From assembly GCA_023143455.1 (NCBI GenBank), contig JAGLHT010000004.1:1-64000 (forward strand): 64,000 nucleotides of DNA, read 5' to 3'. The DNA is from Desulfobacterales bacterium. Lineage in GTDB: Bacteria; Desulfobacterota; Desulfobacteria; Desulfobacterales; Desulfobacteraceae. The notes under the pieces were generated by a model. It saw only the letters and a program-made list of their open reading frames with translations. It searched no databases and was not told the DNA's origin. Shown here piece after piece: positions 22,712 to 48,497 of the stretch (position 1 is the stretch's first letter; every line of letters begins with the position of its first letter). Both the position numbers and the translations under genes were made by a program.

Positions 22712-24304
22712 TTATTCTTTTAAATAGCCATTTAAATCATCAAAAAGTTGAGTAGAGAAAAGTAATGTTCTAAATTTCTTAATATCTTCATTGAAAATTC
22801 TGGTATTATCATATACCTCAAAATCTTTAAGCAGAATATTGTAAATTTTTGAAGTTCCATATCCCATTTTATCAGCATTTCTAAATGACAATGCTTGTAG
22901 ATCAGCTAAGGTTTCAAGAGTTAGAATATGTTTTGCATTGCTTACAAGTCCAAAAGCTTTTCTTGCTGCTACAGTACCCATACTTACAACATCCTGATTA
23001 TTTTGATTGCATGAAATTGAATTTACACTCATAGGAGCTGCAAGATTTCTATTTTCTGCTGCAGATGATGTAGCAAGATATTGTGCACCCATAAAACCCA
23101 TTGTAAGCCCAATTTCTCCTGGTATTAAATGCTCAGGAAGACCTTCGTTTAAATTTTTATCTAAAAGCTTGTTTAACCGTCTTTCCGAAAGATTACAAAG
23201 AGTTGACATTGCGATACATAAAGAATCCATTGCAAACGCAATGCTCTGTCCATGAAAGTTACCACCATGAAGTATTTTATTTTCTTCAGGAATAATTATA
23301 GGATTATCATTGGTTGAATTTGCTTCTATTTCTATGGTTTTAATACAACTATCAATGGTTTCTTTTACAGGAGCAAGAATCTGGGGGGTACACCTGATAG
23401 AATAAACATCCTGGACATTAATATTTGTTTCAAAAACAATGGAATCATTATCTGCCTGTTCTCGAATCTTTTTATGCATATCTTCACGTAATGTAAGGTT
23501 TGAAGTACCTTTATACAAATCTGAGATTATTTTAGATGTTGCAACCTGTCCAGGATGTGGTTTTAAGTTATGTAGGGACATATCAAATGCATCATCAATT
23601 CCACCGAAAATCTCAATTGCAAATGATGCATTTACAATAGCAACATTATAAACCTTTTGGGCTCCAAACATTGCAAAAGCTGCAATACCAGTCATTGCAG
23701 CAGTTCCATTTATTAAAGCAAGCCCTTCTTTATACTGAAGTCTTAATGGCTTTAATTGAGTTCTTCTAAATGCCTCTTTTACGTCAACTAATTCTTTTTT
23801 ATGATAGACTTCGCCTCTCCCAATTAATGCAAGAGACATGTGGGCGAGATGAATCAAATCTCCTGATGCTCCAACACTGCCAGATTTTGGAATATATGGT
23901 GCAATCTGGTTGTTTATCATGTCTCGCATAAGTTCTAAAAGTTCGATTCTGATACCGGAATATCCTTTAATAAGAGTATTTAATCTTACTAAAAGGATGC
24001 CAAGAGAAATATAAGGTAAAATAGGTGCACCCATACCAGCCGCATGACTTATAATTAAATTTTCCTGGAGAGTCTCAAGTTCATCTTTATTAATTATTCT
24101 ATTACACATGGGACCAAAGGAAGTATTAACTCCATAAATAACTTTTTGAGAATCAATGGCATCCTTTAAATAATTTCTGGAAGCTTTACATTTTTCCAAT
24201 GCTTCTTCATCAAGCTCAACTCTTTTATCACCGATTCCAACAGCTACAATATCTTTGTAAGTAAGATCTTTTCCATTTAATATAATACTTGGTCTTTTAT
24301 CCAT
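22712..24304 (-). CDS. Aromatic amino acid ammonia-lyase (HAL/PAL/TAL family)
   Basis: This 530-residue enzyme eliminates ammonia from an aromatic amino acid. The Ala-Ser-Gly triad that cyclises into the MIO cofactor is at 146-148 (GSVGASGDL), and the catalytic tyrosine is in YGVNTSFG (Y58). At the substrate selectivity pair it has Ser86-His87, as in HutH and some tyrosine lyases. Where HutH has glutamate it has glutamine (NNQDVVSMG), which argues against a plain histidine lyase. Next to the adenylating enzyme, the likely product is coumarate or cinnamate as polyene starter. A lyase also starts flexirubin-type pathways. Substrate choice is inference. Confidence 0.88.
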   Translation of the reverse strand: MDKRPSIILNGKDLTYKDIVAVGIGDKRVELDEEALEKCKASRNYLKDAIDSQKVIYGVNTSFGPMCNRIINKDELETLQENLIISHAAGMGAPILPYISLGILLVRLNTLIKGYSGIRIELLELMRDMINNQIAPYIPKSGSVGASGDLIHLAHMSLALIGRGEVYHKKELVDVKEAFRRTQLKPLRLQYKEGLALINGTAAMTGIAAFAMFGAQKVYNVAIVNASFAIEIFGGIDDAFDMSLHNLKPHPGQVATSKIISDLYKGTSNLTLREDMHKKIREQADNDSIVFETNINVQDVYSIRCTPQILAPVKETIDSCIKTIEIEANSTNDNPIIIPEENKILHGGNFHGQSIAFAMDSLCIAMSTLCNLSERRLNKLLDKNLNEGLPEHLIPGEIGLTMGFMGAQYLATSSAAENRNLAAPMSVNSISCNQNNQDVVSMGTVAARKAFGLVSNAKHILTLETLADLQALSFRNADKMGYGTSKIYNILLKDFEVYDNTRIFNEDIKKFRTLLFSTQLFDDLNGYLKE

Positions 24305-24330
24305 AATTTTCTCTCTTTCTATGTTTTTAA

Positions 24331-25683
24331 CTATCTTTTATCAAAAAATGTTTGTCTTTTTCGTTTTTTATCGAATTGATAGATTTTATTATTTGCATGG
24401 TTCTGCGAAATGATTTTAACTTCCGGGGCAACCCTTATTTTCGCTCTTAATTTTTCTCGTATCCAGTCTGGTTCTTTATCTTCATTAACATCATTGTCAG
24501 AAAGAGAAGCATATAAAATAACACGATCAGTGCCATCATTATTTTTAACAGCTTCTACATAACCGCTATGAAATCTTGGCTCTCCTTCAAGTATTGAAAT
24601 AATAGATTCAGGGAAAATAGTAGTTCCTTTGTATTTCAACATCTGATTTTTTCTACCGAGTATTGGACCCAGCCTTTTAGTTTTCCTCCCGCATTCACAC
24701 TTTTCTTTAATGATAAAAGAAACGTCGCCGGTTTTGAATCTGATCAATGGCATTCCTGTTACTCCCAATGGTGTTGTAACAACTTCTCCCACATTACCAT
24801 CTTCTACATTGTTTCCATTTCCATCAACTATCTCAACAACATTTAATTCTGGTCTTACATGTCCGCCTTGTTGTTGTTCGCACTCACAAAACGTAGTTGC
24901 AATTTCAGAGGAGGCATAGGTTGAAAAGATTTTTGCATTCCACATCTTTTCCAGTTGAGCAGCAACAGGAATTAAATTCAAATCTTTGTTTCTGATGGGT
25001 TCACCGATTGCAATAAGTTTCCTGACTTTAGACTTTGCAGGGTCATTACCATTTTTTAAAGCATATTGACCAATCCTGTATATTAATGAAGGCACCCCAA
25101 CTATAACAGTTGCGTCAGTAAAATTTATCATCTCCCAACTCTGAGCTGAATCATTTGAGCCGGCTCTAACCATTCTGGCGTTAAGCTTTACTCCGCCTAA
25201 AAAATATGCAATCCCAGCCATAAAGCATTTATCAATTGCAGCACAAATCAACATTGTGTCTGAGCTAGTAACTCCTGCAATTTTAAAAGCAATCTCTTCA
25301 TTAAAAGCTAATCTTGCAAGATCTTTTGATGTTAAAGGAATAATTGTCGGAACTCCTGATGTCCCAGAAGTGAGGCTTAAATCTACAATTGCTTCCTGAT
25401 CAACACAAATGAAATCATTATTGATATCATTTTTTTTTGTAAAAGGGAGTTTTATAATATCATCAATGGTTTTTATTTCATCAATATCAAGTCCAATAGA
25501 CGAATAAAGGTTTTTATAAAAAGGGCTGTTATTAATTACATAATTAAAATGCTCAAGGAAAAGTTTGTTTTGTATAACTTTAATCGCCTTAACATCTGAA
25601 TATTGTAAGTTTGCATATTCATTATACCAAAACCCATTTATCAATTGAGTATCATTTAAGTGACTATTGTTTTTAATATTCAT
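24331..25683 (-). CDS. PaaK-like aryl-acid adenylating enzyme
   Basis: This 450-residue adenylate-forming enzyme resembles phenylacetate-CoA ligase. It has the P-loop LTSGTSGVP (104-112), the YASSEIATTF motif, RFKTGDVSF and a cysteine-containing CECGRKTKR segment, and a C-terminal mobile domain ending in a basic tail. It lies 26 bases upstream of the ammonia-lyase and is transcribed with it. I infer that it activates the aromatic acid made by the lyase and transfers it to CoA or to one of the carrier proteins. It is divergent from the large plus-strand operon. Confidence 0.87.
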   Translation of the reverse strand: MNIKNNSHLNDTQLINGFWYNEYANLQYSDVKAIKVIQNKLFLEHFNYVINNSPFYKNLYSSIGLDIDEIKTIDDIIKLPFTKKNDINNDFICVDQEAIVDLSLTSGTSGVPTIIPLTSKDLARLAFNEEIAFKIAGVTSSDTMLICAAIDKCFMAGIAYFLGGVKLNARMVRAGSNDSAQSWEMINFTDATVIVGVPSLIYRIGQYALKNGNDPAKSKVRKLIAIGEPIRNKDLNLIPVAAQLEKMWNAKIFSTYASSEIATTFCECEQQQGGHVRPELNVVEIVDGNGNNVEDGNVGEVVTTPLGVTGMPLIRFKTGDVSFIIKEKCECGRKTKRLGPILGRKNQMLKYKGTTIFPESIISILEGEPRFHSGYVEAVKNNDGTDRVILYASLSDNDVNEDKEPDWIREKLRAKIRVAPEVKIISQNHANNKIYQFDKKRKRQTFFDKR

Positions 25684-25920: not shown

Positions 25921-27411
25921 ATGAATAACTATGATGATATTGTTGTTGGAAGTGGAATAAGTGGATTAACTACAGCTTTGATTTTAGGCATGAATCAAAG
26001 AAAAGTGCTTTTATTAGAAAAATCACCTAAGATAGGTGGATCTCTATCTAGGTTTTATAAAAAAGGGATCCCTTTTGACACTGGCTTCCATTTTACAGGT
26101 GGATTTGCCAATGATTTAATCCTTTCAGACATGCTTTCAGTTCTGTCATTAAATGATGATATTCACCCAGAATTTATTAAAAACCCGGAAGATAATAGAT
26201 TTATTTTTGAAAACCAGGGAAAATCATTTGAATTCCATTCTGGTTTTGAACAAAATAAAAAAGACATGCTCTCTTATTTTCCTGATGAAAAAAATGCCAT
26301 AAATTCTTATTTCTCCAAAGTCAAAAATGTAAGGATGAATACAAAAGCTATGAACATCCGAGCTGAATTTGTGATGCAACAGCCTTTGGAAGAAGATTTT
26401 ATAAGTTTAAAAGAAGTGCTTGACTCTCTTACTGATAATAAAACTTTAAAAACACTTTTCAGTGCATTTTCCATGTGCCATGGGACAGAACCTTCACAGA
26501 TCTCATTTGCAAATCACTCAAGAGTTACCTATAGTCTTTATGAATCCATTGCCCGTGTAAAAGATGGAGGGAATGCTTTTATTAAAGCATTTAAAAACAA
26601 ATTAAAAGAATATAATGTCGATATAAAAACAAACACTTTTATTTCTTCATGTGAAGATATTGCAAAAAGAAAAGTCGGAACTTTCGTGCTTAACAATGGC
26701 ATTAAATTAAAAGCAGACAATTGTGTTTTTACAATCCATCCGGAAGAGATTTTAAAAACTTTTCAAGAAAAAAATACCTCCAAAGCCTTTATAGATAGAG
26801 TAAAAAATTTTGAAGAGTCTGTTGGCTTTTTCCTTACTTTCATAAAACTTACAAAAAAAGATCAAAAACCCCTTAATCCCGCTGTTATTACATTATATCC
26901 AGATAACGACTTAGATAAACTCTTTGACCCCAAATATAAAGGTGACCTGCCATTAGTTTTGGTAAAAAATTCCGAAGAAGTAAAAAACGAAAAAATTAAT
27001 ATTATAAATGCTTTTGAACTGTCCCATTGGGAGCATGTTAAACAATGGGCTGATTCAACTACAGGAAAAAGAAGTATAGAATATAAAGAATACAAAAAAA
27101 ATAGAACTGACCGAATTATCCAACGCATAACTACTATGTTTCCTGAATATAAAAATTGTCTTGAAGTTATTGACTCTGCATCCATGCTGACTTTCCGCGA
27201 TTATTTGAATAATCCATATGGAAGCGCCTATGGAATTAAACAAAAAATTGGGCAATTTAATCTTTTTGGACGTGTTCAATATAAAAATACTTATGCTGCT
27301 GGACAAAGCTCAATATTACCTGGAGTTTTGGGAGCAATGATGTCAGGCTTTACCATTTGCCGATATATATTGAGTAAAGAAGTTTATGCTAAATTTATAG
27401 AAAATAATTAA
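25921..27411 (+). CDS. CrtI/RetSat-like FAD-dependent oxidoreductase
   Basis: This 496-residue flavoprotein has an N-terminal Rossmann motif (VVGSGISGLTTAL; glycines at 10-15) and GFHFTGGF. Its C-terminal family motif is AAGQSSILPGVLGAMMSG. It belongs to the phytoene desaturase/carotenoid isomerase group. It is the first gene of the plus-strand operon and has a good ribosome site (AAGGTGG). Carotenoid-type substrates are unlikely because no phytoene synthase is present. I infer action on the polyene or acyl chain (desaturation, saturation or isomerisation). Such enzymes occur in proposed ladderane gene sets. Confidence 0.85.
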   Translation: MNNYDDIVVGSGISGLTTALILGMNQRKVLLLEKSPKIGGSLSRFYKKGIPFDTGFHFTGGFANDLILSDMLSVLSLNDDIHPEFIKNPEDNRFIFENQGKSFEFHSGFEQNKKDMLSYFPDEKNAINSYFSKVKNVRMNTKAMNIRAEFVMQQPLEEDFISLKEVLDSLTDNKTLKTLFSAFSMCHGTEPSQISFANHSRVTYSLYESIARVKDGGNAFIKAFKNKLKEYNVDIKTNTFISSCEDIAKRKVGTFVLNNGIKLKADNCVFTIHPEEILKTFQEKNTSKAFIDRVKNFEESVGFFLTFIKLTKKDQKPLNPAVITLYPDNDLDKLFDPKYKGDLPLVLVKNSEEVKNEKINIINAFELSHWEHVKQWADSTTGKRSIEYKEYKKNRTDRIIQRITTMFPEYKNCLEVIDSASMLTFRDYLNNPYGSAYGIKQKIGQFNLFGRVQYKNTYAAGQSSILPGVLGAMMSGFTICRYILSKEVYAKFIENN

Positions 27412-27424
27412 GGGAATTAATATC

Positions 27425-28663
27425 TTGAAAAGAAGAGTTGTTGTTACCGGAACAGGGAGTATTTCTGCTCTGGGCAATTGTATGAAAGAATTAATAGATT
27501 CTATTGAAAGGCAAGTTTGCGGTACAAAGCAAATGGAGACATGGAATCAATATAAAGGTTTACAAAGCCTTGTGGGAGCACCCGCAGAGCTGCCGGATAT
27601 AAAAATAATCCCAAGGAAAATGCGACGCTCAATGGGTAGAATGAGCCTTTTGGCTGTTTTTGCTGTAAACGAAGCCTTAGAGTCAGCCGGTCTAGAAAAA
27701 AATGAAATTACAAATGAAAGATATGGTTGTGTTGCCGGTTCTACAATGGGCAGTGCTGAGGCTCTGAATGACACGTTTGAAATCATGCTTCCTGATCACG
27801 ATCTGACTTTACTTACCTCCATGAGCTTTTTTCAATGTATTTCCCATACTGTATCCATGAATATTGCCCAATATCTTGGAATTACCGGAAGTGTTATTGC
27901 AACATCAGCTGCTTGTGCATCATCTCTTCAAGCTATTGGTACAGGTTTTGATCTTATTCGAAATAACACCCAGGATATTGTTCTTTGCGGAGGTTCAGAA
28001 GAACTGCATCCAACTGTAACGGGTTCCTTTGATATATTATTTGCAACTTCTACTAAATTTAATGAAACTCCAAAAAAAACACCTCGCCCTTTTGATAAGA
28101 ACCGTGACGGATTAGTCTGTGGTGAAGGTGCTGGAATAATTGTGCTTGAAGAACTTGAACATGCAAAAAAAAGAGGTGCTAATATTCTTGCTGAGGTTGT
28201 AGGATATAATACATGTGGAAGCGGAACCCATATAAGCCAGCCAGACAGACAAGCAATGATTCAATGCATGAAAGCAGCATTAGCAGATGCCGGAATAAAA
28301 CCTGAAAATATCGATTTTGTAAGCGCACATGCCACTGCTACCTTGCAGGGAGATCATGAGGAAGCAGCAGCAATTTATGAGGTCTTTGGATCACAAACCC
28401 CTGTTAATAGTTTAAAGGGGTATTTAGGACATACTCTGGGAGCTAGTGGTGCAATTGAACTTGCAGTAGCAATTGAAATGATGAATAACAGCATTATTTA
28501 TCCGACATTAAACCTCACAGATATTGATGAAGGTTGCAGCATGATAAAACATGTAAAAACAAAACTAAAAAAGAATATTAACTTTATACTTAAAAACTGC
28601 TTTGCCTTTGGTGGTATAAATGCTTCTATTATTTGTAAAAAATACGAGGAAATAAATGAGTAA
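27425..28663 (+). CDS. Beta-ketoacyl-ACP synthase (FabF-like), KS1
   Basis: This 412-residue condensing enzyme has an intact triad: Cys164 in SAACASS, His302 in SAHATAT and His336 in GYLGHTLGASG. The start is a TTG at 27425 preceded by AAGGG. The conserved N-terminal strand VVVTGTGSISALG begins right after it, which supports the TTG. It lies 13 bases after the CrtI-like gene and overlaps the ACP gene by eight bases, so KS1 and ACP1 are coupled. It has no chain-length partner beside it, unlike the other two synthases. Confidence 0.92.
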   Translation: MKRRVVVTGTGSISALGNCMKELIDSIERQVCGTKQMETWNQYKGLQSLVGAPAELPDIKIIPRKMRRSMGRMSLLAVFAVNEALESAGLEKNEITNERYGCVAGSTMGSAEALNDTFEIMLPDHDLTLLTSMSFFQCISHTVSMNIAQYLGITGSVIATSAACASSLQAIGTGFDLIRNNTQDIVLCGGSEELHPTVTGSFDILFATSTKFNETPKKTPRPFDKNRDGLVCGEGAGIIVLEELEHAKKRGANILAEVVGYNTCGSGTHISQPDRQAMIQCMKAALADAGIKPENIDFVSAHATATLQGDHEEAAAIYEVFGSQTPVNSLKGYLGHTLGASGAIELAVAIEMMNNSIIYPTLNLTDIDEGCSMIKHVKTKLKKNINFILKNCFAFGGINASIICKKYEEINE

Positions 28664-28910
28664 TAAAATTGAACTAATGATTAATGAAGTTTTTCAAGAA
28701 TCTTTTGAAATTGAAAAAAATCAACTTAAACCTGAAGCTAATATCTTTGAAGATTTAGGACTGGATAGCTTAGATGTAGTTGACCTTGTTGTAGCCTTAC
28801 AAAATAAATTCAAGGTGGAAATAAGAACTGACGAAAGAATCAAAGAGATAAGAACACTTAAAGATCTTTGTATATTCATAAAAGAATTGCAGTCTGAAGG
28901 TTCTAGTTAA
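28656..28910 (+). CDS. Acyl carrier protein, ACP1
   Basis: This 84-residue acidic four-helix protein has the phosphopantetheine attachment site GLDSLD with Ser38. It is translationally coupled to KS1 (8-base overlap) and to the acyltransferase that follows (1-base overlap). It probably carries the growing chain or the aryl starter. Confidence 0.93.
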   Translation: MSNKIELMINEVFQESFEIEKNQLKPEANIFEDLGLDSLDVVDLVVALQNKFKVEIRTDERIKEIRTLKDLCIFIKELQSEGSS

Positions 28911-29653
28911 TGGTTTTTTTAAAAAATCTATTGTTTTTTATTCTTTTTGTTACTTTTACAATAGATTTTTTTTTATTTTTTGGAATTGTTTTAATATTTA
29001 TCCATCTTCTATTTTCAAAAAAAACTGCTCAAAAAACTTTAAGATTTTTAATTGTCATTTATGGAAGAATCATTATTTTTGGTTTTGCAAGACTACTTGT
29101 AAAAGTCCGATTTATTGATTCTACTAAAGGAAAGATTGCACATGATCCTTGTGTTTATGTGGCAAACCATAGATCAGCTTCAGATCCCTTTTTAATGGGA
29201 GTTCTTCCCGGCGAATTTGTGCAGATTGTAAATTTATGGCCATTTAAGCTACCTATATTTGGTTTATGCGCACAGCTTGCAGGATATTTAAGTGTCAGAA
29301 GTATGCCCTATACTGATTTTTCAACAGAATGTCAAAAATTATTCTCCCAAAAAATTTCTATAGTTGGTTTCCCTGAAGGAACAAGATCAGCTTCTCCTAA
29401 AATAGGGCAGTTCCACAGCACCTTATTCAGAATAGCAGCAGAAAACAAACTTAAAATTGTACCTTTAATTATTTTAGGAAATGCAGATAAACCAAAACGA
29501 AAAAGCTTAAAAATAAACCCTGGGAAAATTGAAATTCATAAACTTCCTGCAATAGATCATACTGAATATGAAAACTTTAGTAGTTTTGAGCTAAAAAACC
29601 ACGTACGAGAAACAATGCAAGCTTTTATTGACAAACAAACAGACCTTATATGA
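28910..29653 (+). CDS. PlsC-like 1-acyl-glycerol-3-phosphate acyltransferase
   Basis: This 247-residue membrane-associated acyltransferase has the HX4D motif NHRSASD (His87, Asp92) and the PEGTR motif (155-159). A hydrophobic N-terminal anchor spans about residues 5-35. It is coupled to ACP1 upstream and overlaps the fused radical SAM/dehydratase gene by four bases. PlsC-like enzymes occur in aryl polyene clusters, where they are thought to move the chain to a lipid anchor. The acceptor here is unknown. Confidence 0.88.
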   Translation: MVFLKNLLFFILFVTFTIDFFLFFGIVLIFIHLLFSKKTAQKTLRFLIVIYGRIIIFGFARLLVKVRFIDSTKGKIAHDPCVYVANHRSASDPFLMGVLPGEFVQIVNLWPFKLPIFGLCAQLAGYLSVRSMPYTDFSTECQKLFSQKISIVGFPEGTRSASPKIGQFHSTLFRIAAENKLKIVPLIILGNADKPKRKSLKINPGKIEIHKLPAIDHTEYENFSSFELKNHVRETMQAFIDKQTDLI

Positions 29654-30738
29654 ATTGTTCTATATATCCAGATAGTATTGAGACAATAATACAAAACAAA
29701 CAACTTTTCTGTTTGGAAATTGATCTTAAAGGGAAATGTAACCATAATTGTTCTTTTTGTTATTTAACTAATGTTATAACCCCTGATCAGATCAATGAAA
29801 ATGAACTTTCATTTAATGAAATAACAGATTTAATTTCTCAAGCTCATGGGCTTGGAGCAAAAAAATTAATCTTATATGCAAGCCAATCTAATCCACGTCC
29901 TGACATTACAAAAATCGGTAAGTTTATTGTTGAAAAAAATTTACAAATAGATTGTTCTTTTAATGGAACCATTAGCACCCTGCCCTCGGATTTAAGTAAC
30001 ATTAAATGCTTAAAACATAAGTATTCATGTTTTATCGCATCAGACGGAAGTGTTTACCCCTGTGCTGGGATGCCTTTGTTAATTGGCAACATACGTAATA
30101 ATACACTTGAAAAGATACTTTCAGACAGTGAGGTTGTTGAAAACCTGAGAAACCATGAAATTAATATAAAAGGACCCTGTCGTAATTGTGACAAATTTTC
30201 AAATTGTTACGGTTGTCGTGGAAGAACGTTTTCTTTAACGGGTGACTATCTGGGTTCTGATCCGTTATGCCCTGAAAATCAAAGCAAGCTTGACAAAATT
30301 ACATATCTTCCAATGTCAGTTGAAAACTTGATACCACAAAAGTTAGGAATGCGTGTTGTTTCTTCATTATTAAAAGTTGGGGAACGAACTGCAAAAATAG
30401 AATCTATTTTTACAGAAAAAAGCCCTTTTGTAAAACCCGATGGAAGTATAGAAGAAATTGCTTACATGGAAATGATGGCACAATCAGCTGCTGCAATGAA
30501 TGGTTTTGAAAAATTTGACACTGACAGACCAGATCCCGGAGGTTTTTTAATTGGGGGACAAAAAATAAACATATATTGTAAAGCTTATATTAAAGAAAGA
30601 TTAATAATAGATATTTCTAAACAAGCTAAATTTGGAAACTTTGGTATTCTTACAGCAACAATTAAAAGAAACAATGATTTAATAGCTGAGGGTGAAATTA
30701 AAATTTATAAAAATGATGGGGCAAACAATGAGATTTAA
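29650..30738 (+). CDS. Fusion of truncated radical SAM/SPASM domain with hotdog dehydratase
   Basis: This 362-residue protein has two parts. The N-terminal part has the radical SAM cysteines C30-x3-C34-x2-C37 (CNHNCSFC) and a SPASM-like cysteine set (C120, C127, C138, C177, C180, C186, C189, C207). Only about 85 residues separate the two, too few for the full barrel, and the usual GGEP motif reads YASQSNPRPD. The C-terminal part (about 218-362) is a hotdog domain like the 3-hydroxyacyl-ACP dehydratase of aryl polyene clusters (MSVENLIPQKLGMRVV, YMEMMAQSAAAMNGF, GGFLIGG). The dehydratase is probably functional. The radical SAM part may be degenerate or have a binding role. It overlaps the upstream gene by four bases. 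Confidence 0.75.
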   Translation: MNCSIYPDSIETIIQNKQLFCLEIDLKGKCNHNCSFCYLTNVITPDQINENELSFNEITDLISQAHGLGAKKLILYASQSNPRPDITKIGKFIVEKNLQIDCSFNGTISTLPSDLSNIKCLKHKYSCFIASDGSVYPCAGMPLLIGNIRNNTLEKILSDSEVVENLRNHEINIKGPCRNCDKFSNCYGCRGRTFSLTGDYLGSDPLCPENQSKLDKITYLPMSVENLIPQKLGMRVVSSLLKVGERTAKIESIFTEKSPFVKPDGSIEEIAYMEMMAQSAAAMNGFEKFDTDRPDPGGFLIGGQKINIYCKAYIKERLIIDISKQAKFGNFGILTATIKRNNDLIAEGEIKIYKNDGANNEI

Positions 30739-31375
30739 AATTATATTGGGAACACCTTTTAGAGTAATTTTTCTAATACTGTTATTTTTATTTCTAAGTC
30801 AGAATACTTTTTCTGCTGATATCGACACATTTTTATCTGATGTAGAAAAAAACATGAGCAGTATTCAAACTGTTCAAACATCCTTTATTCAAAAAAAGCA
30901 TATGGCCATGTTTGATATGCCTATTATAATCAAAGGAAAAATCTTTATTCAAAATCCGAACAAATTTGCATGGGTTGTTACTGAGCCTATTGTATACACA
31001 TTAATAATCAGTAAAGACGAGGTTAAAAAATGGGATGCATCAAGTGGGATCCAAGTACTTTCCTTAAATGAAAATCCTATGTTCAAAGCAATGATTGAAC
31101 AGATTACCTTTTGGTTCTCAGGTTCATATGCTTCATGTAAAAATGATTATGATATTAAACTTCTTGTTAAAGAACCTGGTGTTTTAGAATTCACTCCAAA
31201 AAAACATAACCCTGCTTCACAAATGCTTAGTAGCATAACTCTTCAATTTCAAAATGATAAAAAATATATTTCAAAAATTAAGTTATTTGAAAAAAATAAG
31301 GACTCAACGGAAATTCTTTTCACAGATGTGTTAATCAATTCTAAAATTGCTGACTCTGTGTGGGAACTAAATTAA
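30728..31375 (+). CDS. LolA-like outer-membrane lipoprotein carrier
   Basis: This 215-residue periplasmic protein has a signal peptide (hydrophobic residues about 8-25, cleavage near FSA-DID). The body resembles LolA-type carriers (MSSIQTVQTSFIQKK near the mature start, then FIQNPNKFAWVV). The ATG at 30728 is chosen because it gives a normal signal peptide; an earlier start at 30692 is possible. It overlaps the dehydratase gene by 11 bases. With the MMPL and DUF3261 genes downstream it forms the export module typical of aryl polyene loci. Confidence 0.82.
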   Translation: MRFKIILGTPFRVIFLILLFLFLSQNTFSADIDTFLSDVEKNMSSIQTVQTSFIQKKHMAMFDMPIIIKGKIFIQNPNKFAWVVTEPIVYTLIISKDEVKKWDASSGIQVLSLNENPMFKAMIEQITFWFSGSYASCKNDYDIKLLVKEPGVLEFTPKKHNPASQMLSSITLQFQNDKKYISKIKLFEKNKDSTEILFTDVLINSKIADSVWELN

Positions 31376-31377
31376 AT

Positions 31378-33750
31378 ATGACTGAAATAAAAACTGACAA
31401 AAAGCCAAAAACTAAATTCGACAGATTGTTTAATTTTATCGGAAAAAATAAACTGATTTTTCTTTTTTTATTTTTTCTCCTAATAACTATTTCCTTTGCA
31501 CGAATTATTAAGGTCAATTTTGTTAATGATATCTCTGTTATGTTACCAGACACCCTTGAATTAAAAAGATCAATTCATTTTATTAATAATTCAGATATGT
31601 CCGATACTATAGCTTTTTCCATAACTTCTAAAAAAAATGGTTCAAATAAAAATTTATTATCTAGAACAGATGAATTTTCTAAAAAATTAAGAAGCGTATC
31701 CATGATTACTGAAGTACTAACTGGGATTGAAAGCTTTGACATTTCTGCGCTTAAAAAAAATATTGCAACGCACTTACCCTTATTTATACCGAAAGAAGAA
31801 TATCAAATATTCAAAGATACAGAAAAAGAAGAACATATTTCACAAAAAGTAAAACAGATGTTTATTATGTTGACAACACCTGGGAGTTCCTTTTTACAGT
31901 CCTCTTTGAACACAGATCCTTTTGGATGGTCTAACAATATACTTAATAAACTTCAAATATTAACAAAATCAATGGGATTTGATGTTGAACTTAGTAATAA
32001 TCATTTTGTAGACAAAACTCATAATTACTCACTTGTAATAGCAAAAACCTCTGTTCCAGTGACAGATGCTAAAAAATCTGAAGATCTGCTTTTGGCTGTA
32101 GATAATATTATAGAATCATTTGCTGATCTTGAGATAGTTACTATATGCGGTCATAAGCATACTTTAAGCAATCAAAAAGTTGTTAAAAAAGATATATATA
32201 TTACTACAATAATTATATCTATTAGCTTTACACTTTTAATGCTTTTTATATTTAAAACATTTGATGCTTTTTCAATATTTATTCTACCTTTTTTTGCAAT
32301 TGTTATTTCTGTATTTTTATCAAGTTTTATTCTTAAGTCTTTGTCCTTTTTTATGATAGGATTTTCTGCAGTTATAGCAGGAATTTCTGTTGACTATGGA
32401 ATTCATTTGTTTACAGCCTGGAAGACTAAGGACTTTAACGGGTTTAAAGATACAATTAAACCTGTTCTTATAGCATCTTTAAGTACTATCGGGGTCTTTG
32501 TTTCTTTTTTCATATCCTCAGTACAAGGCTACAAGGAACTTGCAATCTTTTCCATCTTAAGTATTGTGATCTGTGTTGTTTTATCAATTCTGTTCTTACC
32601 CCATTTCTGGAAAAAGAAAAACTTAATCTCAAATATTAATATACCAGCCCAATTATCTGTTGGCAAAAGTAAAATTGTTATAATTGTATGGGGTATAATT
32701 TTCTTTTTTTCCGTAATATGCCTTATAAATTCTGATTTCCTTAAAGCAACTGATATTTCGGCATTTGATGGAAGTGAACAAAGTGTTTTTGATGCTGAAA
32801 CAAAATTTTATAGTGTGTGGGGCGGAGAAAAAAAACCTGGGGTTATAGTTACAAAAGGTGAAAATATTGAAACTGCATGGCAAGATTATGAATTAATAAC
32901 AAATAAACTAAAAAATAATATTGATGGCTTTAACTCACTTGCAATACTTTTACCTTCAATAAAACAGCAAAGACAAAATTTAAAAGATTTTAAAAAATAC
33001 TGGACAAAAGACAAAATTTTACAAGTTAAAAGGAAATTTTTAAAAGCAACCGCTCCTTATGGTTTTCAAAAGAGTTCCTTTGAAAATTTTTTTCTTTTGC
33101 TTGAATCAAACGATCTTTTAGTAGAAAATCAAATCCCAGAGACATTACAGGTATTTGAAAAACATTTTGTGAAAGAAATTGAATCAACTATTCTTCTTTC
33201 ATATTTTAATGATACAAAAGAAAATCTTACAAAAATTGAATCTGTTTTAAAGGATCATCCTGATTCTTACATAGTATCAAGAAGGGAGTTGTCTTCTGTA
33301 ATAGGCAAACAATTAATCCTTGACTTGAAAAAAATATCATTATTTGCATTTTGTTGGATATTTGTACTTATTATTCTTTTTTTAAAAAAACCCGGGCATA
33401 TTTTCCTATCATTGCTTCCAGTTATTAGCTCAATCGCATTTGTCTTTCTTGTTTTAAACCTTCTTGCAATTGAAGTTTCAGCCTTTATTCTTATAACTTT
33501 AATAATCATTCTTGGATTAAGCCTTGATTATGGCGTTTTTATTTCAAGTGCCGATTCTATAAAAAATCGAGAGTCTGTTATCATTGCTGCAACTTTTTCC
33601 ATGTTAACAAGTTTGATGGGAGCTGGTGCACTTTTATTCGCGTCTCACCCTGTCATGTTTTCTATTGGAGTAACTTTGGTAAGTGGTATTATAGCAGCCT
33701 ATCTAAGTGCTGTTTTTTGTATTCCAGCTTTTAAAAAGGTGTTAAAATGA
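31378..33750 (+). CDS. MMPL/RND-family lipid exporter
   Basis: This 790-residue inner-membrane protein has two repeats of one helix, a large periplasmic loop and five helices (membrane blocks about 25-45, 270-410, 430-450 and 645-790). Segments such as GISVDYGIHLFTAW and LGLSLDYGVFISSA show the paired RND aspartates. I start at the ATG two bases after the lolA-like stop; an ATG at 31360 overlaps that gene. It is the predicted exporter of the polyene or lipid, working with LolA-like and DUF3261 partners. Confidence 0.9.
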   Translation: MTEIKTDKKPKTKFDRLFNFIGKNKLIFLFLFFLLITISFARIIKVNFVNDISVMLPDTLELKRSIHFINNSDMSDTIAFSITSKKNGSNKNLLSRTDEFSKKLRSVSMITEVLTGIESFDISALKKNIATHLPLFIPKEEYQIFKDTEKEEHISQKVKQMFIMLTTPGSSFLQSSLNTDPFGWSNNILNKLQILTKSMGFDVELSNNHFVDKTHNYSLVIAKTSVPVTDAKKSEDLLLAVDNIIESFADLEIVTICGHKHTLSNQKVVKKDIYITTIIISISFTLLMLFIFKTFDAFSIFILPFFAIVISVFLSSFILKSLSFFMIGFSAVIAGISVDYGIHLFTAWKTKDFNGFKDTIKPVLIASLSTIGVFVSFFISSVQGYKELAIFSILSIVICVVLSILFLPHFWKKKNLISNINIPAQLSVGKSKIVIIVWGIIFFFSVICLINSDFLKATDISAFDGSEQSVFDAETKFYSVWGGEKKPGVIVTKGENIETAWQDYELITNKLKNNIDGFNSLAILLPSIKQQRQNLKDFKKYWTKDKILQVKRKFLKATAPYGFQKSSFENFFLLLESNDLLVENQIPETLQVFEKHFVKEIESTILLSYFNDTKENLTKIESVLKDHPDSYIVSRRELSSVIGKQLILDLKKISLFAFCWIFVLIILFLKKPGHIFLSLLPVISSIAFVFLVLNLLAIEVSAFILITLIIILGLSLDYGVFISSADSIKNRESVIIAATFSMLTSLMGAGALLFASHPVMFSIGVTLVSGIIAAYLSAVFCIPAFKKVLK

Positions 33751-34427
33751 GATTATTAATAATTATTTTTTCCTTGTTACTTTCTTCCTGTTCAACGTTT
33801 ATACCTAAACATGACCTTGTTTTACTCAATAATATGAACCAGGTATCAGCTGCTTTTGAAATAAATCAATATAATGATTCATTAATACAAAAAGCACAAA
33901 TAATCAGTACTACCATTTTCAATTTTAAAGGCAGGAAAATGACTGCACTGGGAGCAACTGAAATTGATGAAAAACAACAAACATACAAAGTTGCCGCACT
34001 AAATCCTATGGGACTTACTCTTTTTCAAATAAAGGTTGCTAACAATATAATTGTATCAAGCTATGTAATACCGCAATTTGGTGAAAATAATGCTGATAAA
34101 GCTGCCGAAATGATTAGTAAAGATATTGCATATATCTATTTTAACAGAAATGTCGATGTTAAGAAAAACTCTATAAACCTTGATAAATACAAAGCTACAA
34201 CCAATGTAAAAATAGATAATGATAGTCATTACAAATATATCTTTAGTGGTAAACCTTTAAAATTAACTACTAAATCAAAATATGAAAACAACAAGAAAAC
34301 ATGGTCAGTAAATTATTATGATTACCAAAAAACAGGTAATGGAGAAATGCCATTTAGAATAATATTTCAAAACCATAAATATGGCTATATGCTTGAAACA
34401 GTGACAAAAAAAATTAATAGTTTTTAG
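33747..34427 (+). CDS. DUF3261 family lipoprotein
   Basis: This 226-residue lipoprotein has a lipobox near residue 15 (LLSSC) and the middle segment MTALGATEIDEKQQTYKVAALNPMG typical of DUF3261 proteins in aryl polyene clusters. It overlaps the MMPL gene by four bases, so the two are coupled. It probably sits at the outer membrane and aids insertion of the product. The molecular role of the family is not known. Confidence 0.82.
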   Translation: MRLLIIIFSLLLSSCSTFIPKHDLVLLNNMNQVSAAFEINQYNDSLIQKAQIISTTIFNFKGRKMTALGATEIDEKQQTYKVAALNPMGLTLFQIKVANNIIVSSYVIPQFGENNADKAAEMISKDIAYIYFNRNVDVKKNSINLDKYKATTNVKIDNDSHYKYIFSGKPLKLTTKSKYENNKKTWSVNYYDYQKTGNGEMPFRIIFQNHKYGYMLETVTKKINSF

Positions 34428-34560
34428 AGTTCTTTTGGTTATTTTCGATATTTTTATCAGATTCACTACCATTCTTTTTAATAATTAACTAAATTTTATT
34501 TAAAAATTAGAAATATTGTTATATGGTGGACGTTTTAGATTGAAACTTTTGGGCATAAAT

Positions 34561-34950
34561 ATGAGCAGATTAAATACGCAGCTAACTGACTTAATAAAAG
34601 ATAAGCTTAAGATTAATGGACCTGATCTCAATGCTGAAATTAAATTTGATAAAAATTTTATTGGGTTTAATGGGCATTTCCCTGAAAATCCCGTTTTACC
34701 AGGAGTTGTGATGATTAAGGTTATGATCGTTATGATAGAGTTATGTAAACAAAAAAGATATATATTATCCCAAATTAAACAGGCTAAATTTATTGAACCT
34801 GTTTTTGCTGAAACTCCCACATTATTTTCTATCCGATCAGATAAAGATAAAGATGGAATCAGGCTTCAGGGCAAAGTCTTTAATTCAGAAAAAATTATTG
34901 CAAAAATTTCTCTCATTTTACAGAAATATAGGATTTCAAAACAAAATTAA
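34561..34950 (+). CDS. FabZ/ApeI-like 3-hydroxyacyl-ACP dehydratase
   Basis: This 129-residue hotdog protein has the dehydratase signature NGHFPENPVLPGVV with catalytic His39. It is shorter than FabZ and closest in layout to the second dehydratase of aryl polyene loci. The ATG at 34561 fits the domain start; a longer frame from 34516 exists. It follows the DUF3261 gene after a 133-base gap, so an additional promoter is possible there. It would dehydrate the 3-hydroxyacyl chain in each elongation round. Confidence 0.83.
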   Translation: MSRLNTQLTDLIKDKLKINGPDLNAEIKFDKNFIGFNGHFPENPVLPGVVMIKVMIVMIELCKQKRYILSQIKQAKFIEPVFAETPTLFSIRSDKDKDGIRLQGKVFNSEKIIAKISLILQKYRISKQN

Positions 34951-35004: not shown

Positions 35005-36369
35005 ATGAAATGTTTTTTAGTTGATTCAAATGTAGCCACCTCACCCTATCCTGTATACCCTTTAGGTATGAGTATGGTTGCAAATGCTCTTATAAAAGCT
35101 GGACACGAAGTATTTCAGTTCGATTTTCTACAAAATAACAGCTCTTACGAAAAATTAGGTGCTGATATTATAAAAGAAGACCCACAAATAGTTGGTATAT
35201 CAATGAGAAACATTGATAATGTGAATTCTCTTCATGAAGAAAAATATACAAGTGTTGTAAAATCAATAGTTACTAAAATTAAATCAGTTAGTAATGCCAC
35301 AGTGGTTCTTGGAGGGACTGCCTTTTCCATTTTACCGGAAAAACTGCTTGAAGAAATTGGTGCAGATTATGGTGTTGTTGGTGAAGGTGAGGAATTAATG
35401 GTAGAGCTTGCAGTAAAAATTCAAGCTGGTAAAATTCCATCAGATAAAATCTTAAAAGCAGAATCAAAACTCAAAGGGATTCAAATACCAAGAGCTTATT
35501 ATAACAAAGAAATAATGAACTATTATCTTCAAAATGGATCAATTGCAAATGTTCAAACCAAACGTGGATGCATTCATAAATGCACATATTGTTCGTATCC
35601 TTATTTGGAAGGGAATATATTTCGACAACGTGATCATAAAGAAACCATTGATGATATTGAATTTCTTATAAATGATTGTAAAGCAAAAATGATATTTTTC
35701 ACTGATTCAGTTTTTAATGATAAACAAGGTTATTACATTGAACTTTTGGAGGAAATGGTCAAACGAAATGTTTCTATACCCTGGACGGCATATATTAAAC
35801 CAGAAAAATTTCCTAGGTCAGTCATGGATCTTATGCTTAAAACTGGTATTAGAGGAGTAGAAATTGGCTCTGATGGTGCTTCTGATGAATCGCTTGTAGG
35901 ATTGGGTAAATCTTTCAGATTTGAGGATATTATTGAATGTAATGAAAGCTTTACTGATAAAGGTATTGCAACAGCAAATTTCTTTATGTTTGGCGGACCT
36001 CGTGAGACAAAAGAGACAATTAGAATTGGAATAGACAATATTATCAATTTAAAAAAGACAGTCTCTTTTATTTTTCAGGGAATTAGAATTCTTCCCAATA
36101 CGATCTTGCATAATATAGCAATCAAACAAGGGATTATAAACAAAGAGAATGATCTGCTGGAATCTGTTTATTATATCGCACCCGGGCTTGATAAAGACTG
36201 GATGGAAGCTTTTTTAACTGATCATTTTAAACCCTATAGACATTGTGTTTTCCCACCCAATGCCCTTGAAAATAGTGTAAAATTTTTACATAAACTCGGA
36301 CATACCGGGCTTATGTGGGATCTTCTTATACCAGACAAGGACAAAAGCAAGAATAAAAAAAGAAAATAA
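35005..36369 (+). CDS. B12-binding radical SAM protein 1
   Basis: This 454-residue enzyme combines an N-terminal cobalamin-binding-like Rossmann domain (about 1-145, with VVLGGTAFS and GVVGEGEE) with a radical SAM domain carrying C189-x3-C193-x2-C196 (CIHKCTYC). A C-terminal extension follows (about 390-454). The usual DxHxxG cobalamin motif is not evident, so bound B12 is uncertain. Enzymes of this class methylate unactivated carbons, form rings or join carbons. It is followed after one base by the glycosyltransferase gene. Confidence 0.87.
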   Translation: MKCFLVDSNVATSPYPVYPLGMSMVANALIKAGHEVFQFDFLQNNSSYEKLGADIIKEDPQIVGISMRNIDNVNSLHEEKYTSVVKSIVTKIKSVSNATVVLGGTAFSILPEKLLEEIGADYGVVGEGEELMVELAVKIQAGKIPSDKILKAESKLKGIQIPRAYYNKEIMNYYLQNGSIANVQTKRGCIHKCTYCSYPYLEGNIFRQRDHKETIDDIEFLINDCKAKMIFFTDSVFNDKQGYYIELLEEMVKRNVSIPWTAYIKPEKFPRSVMDLMLKTGIRGVEIGSDGASDESLVGLGKSFRFEDIIECNESFTDKGIATANFFMFGGPRETKETIRIGIDNIINLKKTVSFIFQGIRILPNTILHNIAIKQGIINKENDLLESVYYIAPGLDKDWMEAFLTDHFKPYRHCVFPPNALENSVKFLHKLGHTGLMWDLLIPDKDKSKNKKRK

Positions 36370-39928: not shown

Positions 39929-40510
39929 GTGAATATACTTGGCAAAGGGTTTGCTGACAATCAAGAAAAAATAAAAGGTATTCGCAGGGCTGACAACTTT
40001 GCAAAAATGGCTGTGTCTGCTTCAAACAAAGCATGTTTAAATTTCAAGTTTTCAAACGAAGACACTGACATATCAATTATTTTATGTACACAGTTTGGAC
40101 CCCATGTTACAACTTTTAAATTCTTAAATAATCTTTTAGATTACTCAGACTCTGGCGTCTCACCCACAACATTTTCTCATTCAGTTCATAATGCTGCTGC
40201 CTCTTATATTGCATCTTCCCTTGGAATCATGGGACAATCAATTACAATCACTTCTTTTCAGGACCCTTTAAAACAAGCATTGATTCTGGCTGACGCCTGG
40301 TTTGCTTGTAGCCAAGCAAAGAAAATTATTGTATGTTATGTGGATGAAGAATCCGAACCTATAAGCGCTGCTCATAAGCATTGTACATTCCCTTCTTATT
40401 CAAAAGATTCATTATCTACTGGAGCTGCGGCAATTTTAGTAGAAAAAGGCGATGATATTGAAATCCCAGAAAAAATTTTTAACCCTTTTACTTATATTAA
40501 GGAAATATAA
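39929..40510 (+). CDS. Ketosynthase-like chain length factor, CLF1
   Basis: This 193-residue protein matches the short ketosynthase N-terminal-like family of aryl polyene loci (FGPHVTTFKFLNNLL, GVSPTTFSHSVHNAAASYIA). The active-site cysteine of true ketosynthases is absent; the corresponding segment reads TITSFQDPLKQAL. The start is a GTG with AGGAGA upstream. It should pair with KS2 and set chain length rather than condense by itself. Confidence 0.85.
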   Translation: MNILGKGFADNQEKIKGIRRADNFAKMAVSASNKACLNFKFSNEDTDISIILCTQFGPHVTTFKFLNNLLDYSDSGVSPTTFSHSVHNAAASYIASSLGIMGQSITITSFQDPLKQALILADAWFACSQAKKIIVCYVDEESEPISAAHKHCTFPSYSKDSLSTGAAAILVEKGDDIEIPEKIFNPFTYIKEI

Positions 40511-43221: not shown

Positions 43222-44715
43222 ATGAAAGTCCTATTAGTTAAACCGCATACTGATCTAAAAGTTGCAAAAAGACTTCAGGAAGGTTTTTTACATCTTGAAC
43301 CCCTCGAACTTGAAATAACCGCTGCCGGTATTGATCTTAAACACGAGACCCGTATCCTTGACCTTAGCGTTGAAAAAAAGCCTTCAGAAATATTTTTCAA
43401 AACCATCAAAGAATTTAGACCTGATTTAATTGGCTTTTCTTCTTACAGTACAGGTATACATATAGTAAAAGACCTTGCCATCAAAACAAAAGAAATCTTA
43501 CCTCAATCACATATTATCATTGGTGGAGTTCATGCCACCTTACGTCCCTATGATTTTAATTGTGATTATTTCTCGGCTATTGTTCGGGGCGAAGGCGCTA
43601 ATGCTATAGCAGAAATTATTCAAAAACTTGAGCAGAAAACCAAAATTGGTAATAATACAAACATCCTTGCACCAACAGATCCTGATTTTGAAACAAATGC
43701 CAGGACCAATCCTCCGCCCTATGTTAAAGCAAGTGCAATACCTCTTCCAAGACGTGATTTAGTTGACAGATCAAAATATTTCTGTATCTGGACCCATAGC
43801 GATACAGGCAAATTAGACAATATGTTTCCCCAGGTAGCAAGTCTAAGAACTTCTTTGGGATGCCCTTTTTCATGCTCTTTTTGTGTTATACATCATGTTA
43901 TGAACAAGGTCTATCTACAGCGGACACCTGAGGATGTTGTAGATGAAATTGAAAATATAAAAGAAGATTATATCTATTTTGTTGATGATGAAATGTTCAT
44001 TAATGTTAAACGTGTTACTAAAATAGCCCAGCTGTTAAAGATAAGAAATATAAAGAAGAAATATATAAGCTGGGCACGAAGCGATACAATTGCTAAACAC
44101 CCTGAAGTCTTTAAGCTCTGGAAAGAAGTTGGGTTAGATGTAGTATATGTTGGTCTTGAATCAATGGATCAACAAAGACTTAAAGATTATAATAAAAAAA
44201 CTGACTTTGAAACAAACATGAAAGCCATAAAAATTCTTAAATTTTATGGGATAATGCTGCACGCAGCTTTTATTGTCCACCCTAATTTTGATAAACAGGA
44301 TTTTAAACGCCTTGAAAAAAATGTTATAGACCTTTCTCCGGCAGAAATTACCTTTACGGTTCTATCACCTTCTCCCGGGACCAAGCTCTTTGAAGATCAT
44401 AAGCATGAGTTTATCTGTAACCCATTTAAATACTATGATTGCATGCACACTATTATCCCAACTACTATGAAACTTAAAAGATTTTACCAGCATTTTGGCC
44501 GTTTATATGCCATTGCTTTGCGACATAATCCTCTGAGGATGAATAGAATTAAAATTAAACCCAAAGATTTTTTCAGAGCACTCTTTTTTGGAACAAGATA
44601 TGTTTTTTCACTCTACGGTATATATAAGGACTACCCTGAAGCAATGTATCAACAAAAAAAAGAAAAACTCCTTGAGGTTTCAAAAAAAACAGGGTTTTCA
44701 TCCTATGACAATTAA
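43222..44715 (+). CDS. B12-binding radical SAM protein 2
   Basis: This 497-residue protein has a cobalamin-binding-like domain (about 1-140, IIGGVHATL and VRGEG), the cluster motif C214-x3-C218-x2-C221 (CPFSCSFC) and a C-terminal extension (about 410-497). It is followed by the AMP-ligase gene with an 11-base overlap. It resembles the BchE/HpnR group in layout. A cyclase, methylase or oxidative function on the chain is inferred, not shown. Confidence 0.88.
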   Translation: MKVLLVKPHTDLKVAKRLQEGFLHLEPLELEITAAGIDLKHETRILDLSVEKKPSEIFFKTIKEFRPDLIGFSSYSTGIHIVKDLAIKTKEILPQSHIIIGGVHATLRPYDFNCDYFSAIVRGEGANAIAEIIQKLEQKTKIGNNTNILAPTDPDFETNARTNPPPYVKASAIPLPRRDLVDRSKYFCIWTHSDTGKLDNMFPQVASLRTSLGCPFSCSFCVIHHVMNKVYLQRTPEDVVDEIENIKEDYIYFVDDEMFINVKRVTKIAQLLKIRNIKKKYISWARSDTIAKHPEVFKLWKEVGLDVVYVGLESMDQQRLKDYNKKTDFETNMKAIKILKFYGIMLHAAFIVHPNFDKQDFKRLEKNVIDLSPAEITFTVLSPSPGTKLFEDHKHEFICNPFKYYDCMHTIIPTTMKLKRFYQHFGRLYAIALRHNPLRMNRIKIKPKDFFRALFFGTRYVFSLYGIYKDYPEAMYQQKKEKLLEVSKKTGFSSYDN

Positions 44716-47367: not shown

Positions 47368-48497
47368 TGAGAAAAGTTAATATTTCTCAAACTACTATTG
47401 TAACATCCCTGGGTGAAGACCTGGCATCAAATTTTCAAGCTCTTTTAAATAAAAAATCTGGCATTAATAAAGTTGATAGATTTAATACAAAAAACTATAG
47501 AAGTGAGTATGCAGCACACATTAAAGATATTGAAACACCCGAAAACAGAAGTAGTTTTTTAAATCTAACTGATTTAATCTTAAAACCTCTAAAAGATATC
47601 CCAAAAGATTGCACTTTATTAACAGCTACAACAAAAGCATGTATTGATTTACTTGAAAAAAACGAACAAAACATATGTCCAATAAATAAATATTTAATCC
47701 CTTCAAATATTTCAAAATATATTGCTGAAAAATTAGATATAAAAAGTTGCGGAATAAATATCAGTTCAGCATGTGCATCTTCCACTATTGCTATTATAAA
47801 AGGTGCACAAATGATTATAAATAAAAGAGCTGATTCTGTTTTAATATTTTGCGCTGATATTATAAGTGAATTTGTTTATTCAGGCTTTTCTGCTCTTAAT
47901 GCTCTTTCTGACATTCCTACTCAGCCCTTTGATATTAATAGAAAAGGATTGACCCTTGGAGAAGGAGGAGCTGCAATTCTTCTTGTGGCTGATGACTTTG
48001 CAAAAAAAAATGATATTGTTTGTAACACATCAATAGCAGGGTTTGGGATTGCAAGTGATGCAAGTCATATTACAGCTCCTGCCCGGGATGGGCGCGGTTT
48101 GATCATGGCAATTAAAAAAGCACTTAAAACTGCAAAAATTATTCCTGATCAGATTGGTGCCATAAACACCCATGGCACTGGTACTGTTTATAATGATTCA
48201 ATGGAAATCAAAGCTCTTAAGAGCATTTTTAAAGATAAAAAAACACTAGGGAATTCAATAAAAGGCTCAATAGGACATACTTTAGCTGGTGCAGGAGGGA
48301 TTGAAGCAGCTCTGGGGACATTAATACTTAAAGAACATATACTGCCCAGCACCCTTGGTTTTTTAAATCCCGATAAAGACACTGAAAACTTTATTAGTTC
48401 TGAAAATGTTACTTTTTTGAAGAATTATTTTCTTACTACAAATTCTGGCTTTGGTGGAACAAATGCTGCTTTAATTTTAAAGAAAGAAGGACTTTAA
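47367..48497 (+). CDS. Beta-ketoacyl-ACP synthase (FabF-like), KS3
   Basis: This 376-residue condensing enzyme has Cys136 (SSACASS), His269 (NTHGTGT) and His304 (SIGHTLAGAG). It is shorter at the N-terminus than KS1. It overlaps the thioesterase gene by one base and shares TAATG with the following ketosynthase-like gene, so KS3 and CLF2 should be made in equal amounts. Confidence 0.92.
   Translation: MRKVNISQTTIVTSLGEDLASNFQALLNKKSGINKVDRFNTKNYRSEYAAHIKDIETPENRSSFLNLTDLILKPLKDIPKDCTLLTATTKACIDLLEKNEQNICPINKYLIPSNISKYIAEKLDIKSCGINISSACASSTIAIIKGAQMIINKRADSVLIFCADIISEFVYSGFSALNALSDIPTQPFDINRKGLTLGEGGAAILLVADDFAKKNDIVCNTSIAGFGIASDASHITAPARDGRGLIMAIKKALKTAKIIPDQIGAINTHGTGTVYNDSMEIKALKSIFKDKKTLGNSIKGSIGHTLAGAGGIEAALGTLILKEHILPSTLGFLNPDKDTENFISSENVTFLKNYFLTTNSGFGGTNAALILKKEGL

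Follow-up and report, generated by a model that had tools for sequence, protein, structure and literature searches.

Introduction

The ApeI and ApeP proteins of aryl-polyene biosynthesis pair into a heterodimer that has only one active site, and a fusion known from this system links ApeI with ApeH, rather than ApeP with an iron-sulphur domain (PMC8041823). SPASM domains are known as tails of radical SAM enzymes, in which the clusters of the tail take part in substrate binding or electron transfer. In anSMEcpe, the first auxiliary cluster (AuxI) is ligated by C255, C261, C276 and C330, and the second (AuxII) by C317, C320, C326 and C348, with such clusters having been proposed to act in electron transfer in both PqqE and anSME (PMC5715301). 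Clusters for ladderanes and polyunsaturated hydrocarbons have been described in Kuenenia and Desulfotalea (Rattray 2009, PMC2649909). This work analyses a gene encoding an ApeP-type dehydratase subunit that carries a SPASM domain and the remnant of a radical SAM barrel. It lies within what is here called the window, the whole stretch of 64,000 nucleotides analysed from contig JAGLHT010000004.1 of a Desulfobacterales bacterium (GCA_023143455.1).

Results

Domain structure of the fusion protein

The gene is one open frame encoding 362 aa, from an ATG at 29,650 to a stop at 30,738, that overlaps both the stop of the acyltransferase gene upstream and the LolA gene downstream (Table 1). An earlier note, made from the sequence alone, had claimed that this frame combines a radical SAM cluster motif, a series of SPASM-like cysteines and an ApeP-like dehydratase, and it held in each respect, with exact coordinates, an intact CX3CX2C motif and a Pfam match to SPASM. 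The separation of the motif from the SPASM cysteines, given as about 85 residues, was counted as 82 (C37 to C120), and the replacement of the SAM-binding GGEP by YASQSNPRPD was confirmed, with ASQS occupying the GGEP columns in an alignment with complete homologues. This GGE(P) motif is absent from the window protein, and present as GGEP in all eight complete fusions and all eight unfused homologues.

The Pfam SPASM profile matches residues 120-181, and every cysteine position of the motif CX9-15GX4C..CX2CX5CX3C..C is filled, although the last spacing is CX2C, not CX3C. A relaxed version of the seven-cysteine pattern occurs only once across the six frames of the window, in the fusion frame. 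The Pfam Radical_SAM profile matches residues 29-112, below its cut-off, and only over the first half of its length (positions 6-91 of 166). The C-terminal domain had no Pfam match at an E value of 0.01, and the Pfam ApeP-like profile gave only matches below its cut-off in the relatives. Yet a profile built from hotdog homologues matches PDB chain 6qsr_B (E = 1e-18), and the same chain, 'Dehydratase Heterocomplex ApeI:P', ranks first in a Foldseek search with the window model (E = 7e-10). The ApeP-like assignment therefore held, refined to one partner, ApeP, of a heterodimeric dehydratase. In the VIA structural ranking, FabZ chains tie with 6qsr_B for the hotdog; the entries of this table reflect the hotdog domain and are of little use for the SPASM part, which was assigned from sequence and from the model of a complete relative (L041). 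Selenocysteine or stop read-through was rejected, as the TGA in the relative G033 sits 5' of the real start, outside the protein.

The AlphaFold2 model of the window protein (mean pLDDT 87.7, pTM 0.87, 33 aligned sequences) places barrel strands at residues 21-25, 72-77 and 99-104, with their helices, ahead of the SPASM domain, a linker helix and the hotdog. The loop bearing CX3CX2C is of low confidence, with residues 31-33 having a pLDDT under 50. The model of L041 (518 aa, pLDDT 86.1) has six barrel strands ahead of its SPASM domain, and matches the structures of PqqE, SuiB, SkfB and anSME, as well as the ApeP of ApeI:P. Hence the (beta/alpha)6 partial barrel is predicted to be incomplete in the window protein, which has three modelled strands against the six of L041: strands 1-3 are kept and 4-6 are gone, with about 130 residues missing by length comparison with homologues.

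Table 1. Features of the fusion gene and its operon, in window coordinates
Feature	Position	Strand	Support or remarks
Phytoene-desaturase-like FAD protein, first gene of conserved operon	25921..27411	+	
Ketosynthase KS1 of operon	27425..28663	+	
Acyl carrier protein	28656..28910	+	
Acyltransferase	28910..29653	+	Directly upstream of fusion gene, overlapping
Fusion gene: radical SAM half-barrel remnant, SPASM, ApeP-type hotdog dehydratase subunit	29650..30738	+	362 aa
Radical SAM remnant, strands 1-3 of (beta/alpha)6 barrel, residues 21-104	29710..29961	+	Homologue alignment, model
CX3CX2C of fusion protein (C30/C34/C37)	29737..29760	+	
Deletion scar, strand 3 to first SPASM cysteine	29962..30006	+	15 residues; 145 in complete homologues
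SPASM domain	30007..30270	+	Pfam PF13186, E = 2e-10; ligands by homology to anSMEcpe
ApeP-type hotdog domain	30292..30714	+	Invariant Glu274; no FabZ-type His
LolA-type protein (flexirubin LolA2-like)	30692..31375	+	Overlaps fusion gene end
MMPL/HAE3-type exporter	31360..33750	+	
DUF3261/LolB-like lipoprotein	33747..34427	+	
ApeI-like subunit	34516..34950	+	Catalytic GHFP His present, FabZ Glu position replaced; FabA 3e-6, ApeI-like 4e-4
TIGR04072 'lipid biosynthesis B12-binding/radical SAM protein'	35005..36369	+	E = 6e-190, above curated cut-off

Complete, inactive and barrel-less fusions

The earlier note knew of no such fusion, and read as uniqueness this failed: a hotdog profile run over 389 genomes of the order Desulfobacterales, followed by inspection of reading frames, found 22. 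Eight are complete (L032-L037, L040 and L041, from six genomes of group f24 g119 plus G106 and G098), with CX3CX2C, GGEP, a six-strand barrel, SPASM and ApeP. Two bear the barrel but are dead, having lost the radical SAM motif (G002 and G006). The remaining twelve, including that of the window, are barrel-less (G000, G001, G033 and G380; seven genomes of f4 g17; and G131 of f7). Strand 3 is separated from the first SPASM cysteine by 145 residues in each complete fusion and each of the eight unfused homologues, against 15-17 in the window group, 16 in f4 and 22 in f7. These figures, together with the existence of the complete fusions, support the earlier proposal that the barrel was cut out and a remnant kept. 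The junction sequences of the three barrel-less groups are dissimilar to each other, and the same segment measures 128 and 183 residues in the two dead full-length fusions. CX3CX2C has been lost from nine of the twelve barrel-less forms, being intact only in the window protein, G033 and G380; in G001, of the same genus as the window, two of its three cysteines are replaced (C, H, D). The dead full-length fusions were located at 1495-2928 (-) of L008 and 1492-3078 (-) of L009, the latter having a long insert within its barrel.

A complete, separate radical SAM gene in the homologues would have counted against this interpretation, as the earlier note recognised. No match to a separate gene for the missing barrel was found in any of the twelve barrel-less genomes, with all four positive controls recovered at E = 1e-62 or better; the window genome is only about 79% complete, which limits this claim of absence. 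Nor was a separate intact copy of the radical SAM enzyme, or a plasmid-borne relative, found in the genomes searched. In G077 and G111, the place of the fusion in the operon is taken by a free-standing ApeP, and complete unfused radical SAM/SPASM relatives elsewhere in the phylum belong to operons of ACP, KS, AT and B12-radical SAM genes. It was the order-wide profile searches that proved productive: scanning genome contigs with the whole protein, which reaches close relatives only, returned just one, and among the listed matches of a whole-protein profile over 395 phylum genomes, only G000 and G061, both of this order, were full-length.

In a tree of the SPASM and hotdog domains, the two dead fusions that still bear a barrel form the sister of the window group (100/99), with f4 and f7 placed elsewhere. 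A single barrel-less clade was not formally rejected by an AU test on the fusion gene alone (p = 0.063), but was rejected by the operon tree of seven flanking genes and 2434 columns (AU p = 1.6e-50). Hence the barrel was likely lost at least twice, although one loss followed by transfer of the gene remains possible, as it is not formally excluded.

Conservation of the SPASM domain

By homology to anSMEcpe, the AuxI ligands of the window protein are C120, C127, C138 and C189, and its AuxII ligands are C177, C180, C186 and C207, the last standing just ahead of the linker helix to ApeP; that clusters occupy these sites is inferred. The AuxII set is complete in all 22 fusions, as is the glutamate of the hotdog equivalent to Glu274, and the AuxI set is complete in 11 of the 12 barrel-less forms. 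The dead full-length pair have lost four and three of their four AuxI ligands, respectively, but no AuxII ligand.

Pairwise dN/dS values agree with this pattern. The estimates use the simple Nei-Gojobori method, and several dS values were saturated. Those for SPASM are mostly 0.07-0.2, in barrel-less and complete groups alike, with one very close pair at 0.36, and those for the ApeP domain are 0.06-0.35. The barrel remnant of the barrel-less groups reaches 0.2-0.76, against 0.14-0.24 for an intact barrel, and falls near 0.2-0.25 among the window protein, G033 and G380, which retain CX3CX2C. Between species of the window group, identity is 72-80% in SPASM and 32-59% in the remnant. The SPASM domain is under purifying selection, and the barrel remnant is relaxed; the expectation that conserved cysteines would reveal a domain kept under selection was therefore met.

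The operon and its ApeI partner

The common operon order is phytoene-desaturase-like protein, KS, ACP, AT, (CoA ligase), fusion, LolA, MMPL, DUF3261 and ApeI. An aryl-polyene/flexirubin-type gene set is present, comprising KS, ACP, AT, a DH pair, KR, LolA, the MMPL exporter and the DUF3261 lipoprotein; the LolA protein scored 118 bits against the flexirubin LolA2 profile, which has a cut-off of 125 bits. Judged on gene content, the operon is of an aryl-polyene/ladderane-like type, although the ladderane side rests only on TIGR04072 and general gene content, so that a ladderane product is no more than a possibility. In having the TIGR04072 gene and further B12-radical SAM genes, the window is reminiscent of the ladderane-like clusters described in PMC2649909; in the polyene/lipid cluster of the window there are four such genes, the others being at 43222-44715, 49246-50511 and 50508-51965 (all +). 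Two incomplete ketosynthase-like frames, of 193 and 246 aa, lie beside complete ketosynthases at 39929-40510 (+) and 48497-49237 (+).

The ApeI-like protein has GHFP without a FabZ-type glutamate, and the fused ApeP has the glutamate without the histidine, and so the two are expected, by analogy with ApeI:P, to form a heterodimer that shares one active site. Neither the heterodimer nor dehydratase activity has been shown. GHFP is kept in all ApeI relatives of nine other operons. In other genomes of the order, frames of about 300 aa carry two tandem hotdogs (L046, 1423-2364, +; L048, 1048-1950, -), the first ApeP-like and the second ApeI-like with GHFP, as if the heterodimer were joined in one chain. 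No SPASM domain was found in a class of hotdog frames of about 250-330 aa (L046-L051), judged on three members.

A gene for a PaaK-type CoA ligase lies directly upstream of all eight complete fusions and none of the 14 inactive ones, all of which follow an acyltransferase gene instead. This split may hint at the lost chemistry, but few independent events lie behind it. The loci behind this comparison were the window (24331-25683, -), L032-L037, L040, L041, L087-L089 and L100. Both the window and G002 have a related CoA ligase near the cluster, accompanied by an aromatic amino-acid lyase gene; in the window this pair (22712-25683, -) sits between genes that are adjacent in G001 (L098), as if it had been inserted in the former or lost in the latter. 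A link to the aromatic amino-acid lyase was discarded, as the gene is present in some genomes and absent in others, histidine lyases confound its detection, and no clear pattern emerged.

Discussion

The architecture of the fusion, its series of losses, and the conservation of and selection on its SPASM domain are shown by sequences and trees, and there is good support for descent from an active radical SAM/SPASM-ApeP fusion that lost its motifs and barrel. In the history proposed here, a complete radical SAM/SPASM enzyme would have been joined in frame to ApeP, a subunit of the heterodimeric 3-hydroxyacyl-ACP dehydratase ApeI:P, within an aryl-polyene/ladderane-type operon, a state persisting in eight genomes. 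With its SAM site intact, the radical SAM part is inferred to have probably acted on a carrier-bound polyene, or a starter, handled by the dehydratase. Several lineages would then have given up this chemistry, losing the SAM motifs, with strands 4-6 deleted in at least two lineages, leaving behind the SPASM domain with its cluster ligands and a half-barrel stub. At present, this would be a non-catalytic module, stabilised by iron-sulphur clusters, that serves ApeP, and hence ApeI:P, in a structural or docking capacity, placing the assembly with the ACP or other operon proteins. The one active site would still draw its glutamate, Glu274, from ApeP and its histidine from ApeI.

The retention of SPASM, the durability of AuxII above all, and the position of C207 ahead of the ApeP linker helix together suggest such a structural or docking role. 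The balance of evidence tips modestly towards this account of lost chemistry, in which cluster binding, the heterodimer, the docking role and the ancestral substrate are all inferred; the binding or docking function suggested earlier for the remnant likewise remains an inference. Several points weigh against it. Firstly, there is no experiment on the clusters, complex formation or role. Secondly, CX3CX2C is kept in the window protein and two close relatives, and a pure scaffold would not need this motif. Further reservations are the single barrel loss that the fusion-gene tree leaves open, and the simple method and saturated dS values behind the dN/dS estimates. It is also possible that SPASM persists merely because its removal would misfold ApeP, without any docking partner. 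A bolder reading, which could as readily prove wrong as right, is that SPASM outlives the radical SAM enzyme as an independent iron-sulphur module, with two or three lineages having independently cut the barrel and converged on half-barrel, SPASM and ApeP, and SPASM organising or regulating the dehydratase complex.

The main rival, considered unlikely, is a redox module, in which the SPASM clusters exchange electrons with a second enzyme of the operon, such as the desaturase-like flavoprotein or a B12-radical SAM protein, with the dehydratase as an anchor. In its favour are the retention of all eight ligands of both clusters in 11 of the 12 barrel-less forms, the electron transfer proposed for PqqE and anSME, and the presence of flavoprotein and radical SAM genes in the same cluster. 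However, no dedicated partner has been shown, and the dead full-length fusions keep only the AuxII set, such that a two-cluster path is dispensable at least there. A structural role is therefore preferred to electron transfer, as these forms lost AuxI ligands and no AuxII ligand.

It is very unlikely that the N-terminal part is a still-functional minimal radical SAM or iron-sulphur enzyme in the window protein and its close relatives. The intact CX3CX2C in three proteins, and the low dN/dS of the remnant among them, speak for this possibility; against it, GGEP and strands 4-6 are missing, the motif loop is poorly modelled, and G001 has replaced two of the three cysteines. The minimal iron-sulphur protein entertained by the earlier note is thus unlikely as a general account, because most barrel-less relatives have lost the motif, but it is not excluded for the window protein, for which residual radical SAM activity remains a possibility that sequence cannot dismiss.

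Equally improbable is that the N-terminal half is merely vestigial and decaying neutrally, with the dehydratase alone mattering. The stepwise loss of motifs, the relaxed barrel remnant, the repeated deletions and the existence, elsewhere in the order, of a standalone ApeP that has no SPASM domain (L017, L045) are consistent with decay. But SPASM is under constraint no weaker than that on ApeP, its identity in the window group far exceeds that of the remnant, and its ligands are kept over large distances, when neutral decay would lose them. An artefact of assembly or sequencing joining two genes, conceivable in a draft genome of 109 contigs, is all but excluded by the conserved operon order and the occurrence of the fusion across 22 genomes, with the barrel-less architecture recurring, outside the window's own genome, in Desulfobacula sp. 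GMC6 (L021), in G033, which is complete in a single contig, and in nine others.

Hence one fusion gene in one operon provides a natural series from complete, through dead, to amputated enzyme, in which selection on the tail after loss of the enzyme suggests that it has a job of its own. A role for auxiliary clusters apart from SAM chemistry becomes directly testable through closely related proteins. The carriers are relatives of Desulfobacula, the dehydratase is of a pigment-lipid type, and an unknown radical SAM step is tied, in anaerobic polyene or ladderane-like lipids, to the dehydratase ApeI:P.

Each of the parts is known. A radical SAM-dehydratase fusion was not found in the open-access literature searched, which is no proof of its absence elsewhere, and neither was a SPASM domain that had survived barrel loss attached to a dehydratase subunit, with intermediates still extant. 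At the level of kinds of gene, the Kuenenia and Desulfotalea clusters share with the window a phytoene-desaturase-like protein, several ketosynthases, radical SAM proteins including a B12-binding one, and a CoA ligase; unlike the window, no such fusion is mentioned for them (PMC2649909). Two NCBIfam models, TIGR04347 (pseudo_SAM_Halo) and TIGR04304 (GeoRSP_SPASM), score weakly on the SPASM part of the window protein. The former, a named pseudo-SAM/SPASM family, is a precedent for SPASM proteins with degenerate radical SAM sites, but neither family (models of about 290-390 positions) is known to have a dehydratase fusion or to have lost strands 4-6.

PqqE, anSMEcpe, SuiB and SkfB resemble the window protein in SPASM, in all eight ligands and in CX3CX2C, and the complete relatives represent the full enzyme; the window protein differs in lacking half the barrel and GGEP, in being fused to a dehydratase subunit, and in residing in a lipid/polyene operon rather than a peptide-maturation locus. 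The unfused radical SAM/SPASM proteins of ladderane-like lipid operons (L054, L063, L082-L084, L101) are, overall, about 40% identical to the window protein, a figure that rises to 60-64% against the complete fusions. They are likely the parent of the radical SAM half, although they are complete, with intact catalytic motifs and no ApeP domain, and belong to ACP/KS/AT/B12-radical SAM operons rather than to the LolA/MMPL operon. For the C-terminal half, the closest system is the ApeI:P of aryl-polyene clusters (PDB 6QSR, Xenorhabdus doucetiae), which provides the best match in sequence and structure, divides glutamate and histidine between ApeP and a separate ApeI in the same way, and has its gene between acyltransferase and LolA/MMPL genes. 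Yet the ApeP of known clusters is free-standing, whereas that of the window bears a SPASM domain and the remnant of a radical SAM barrel.
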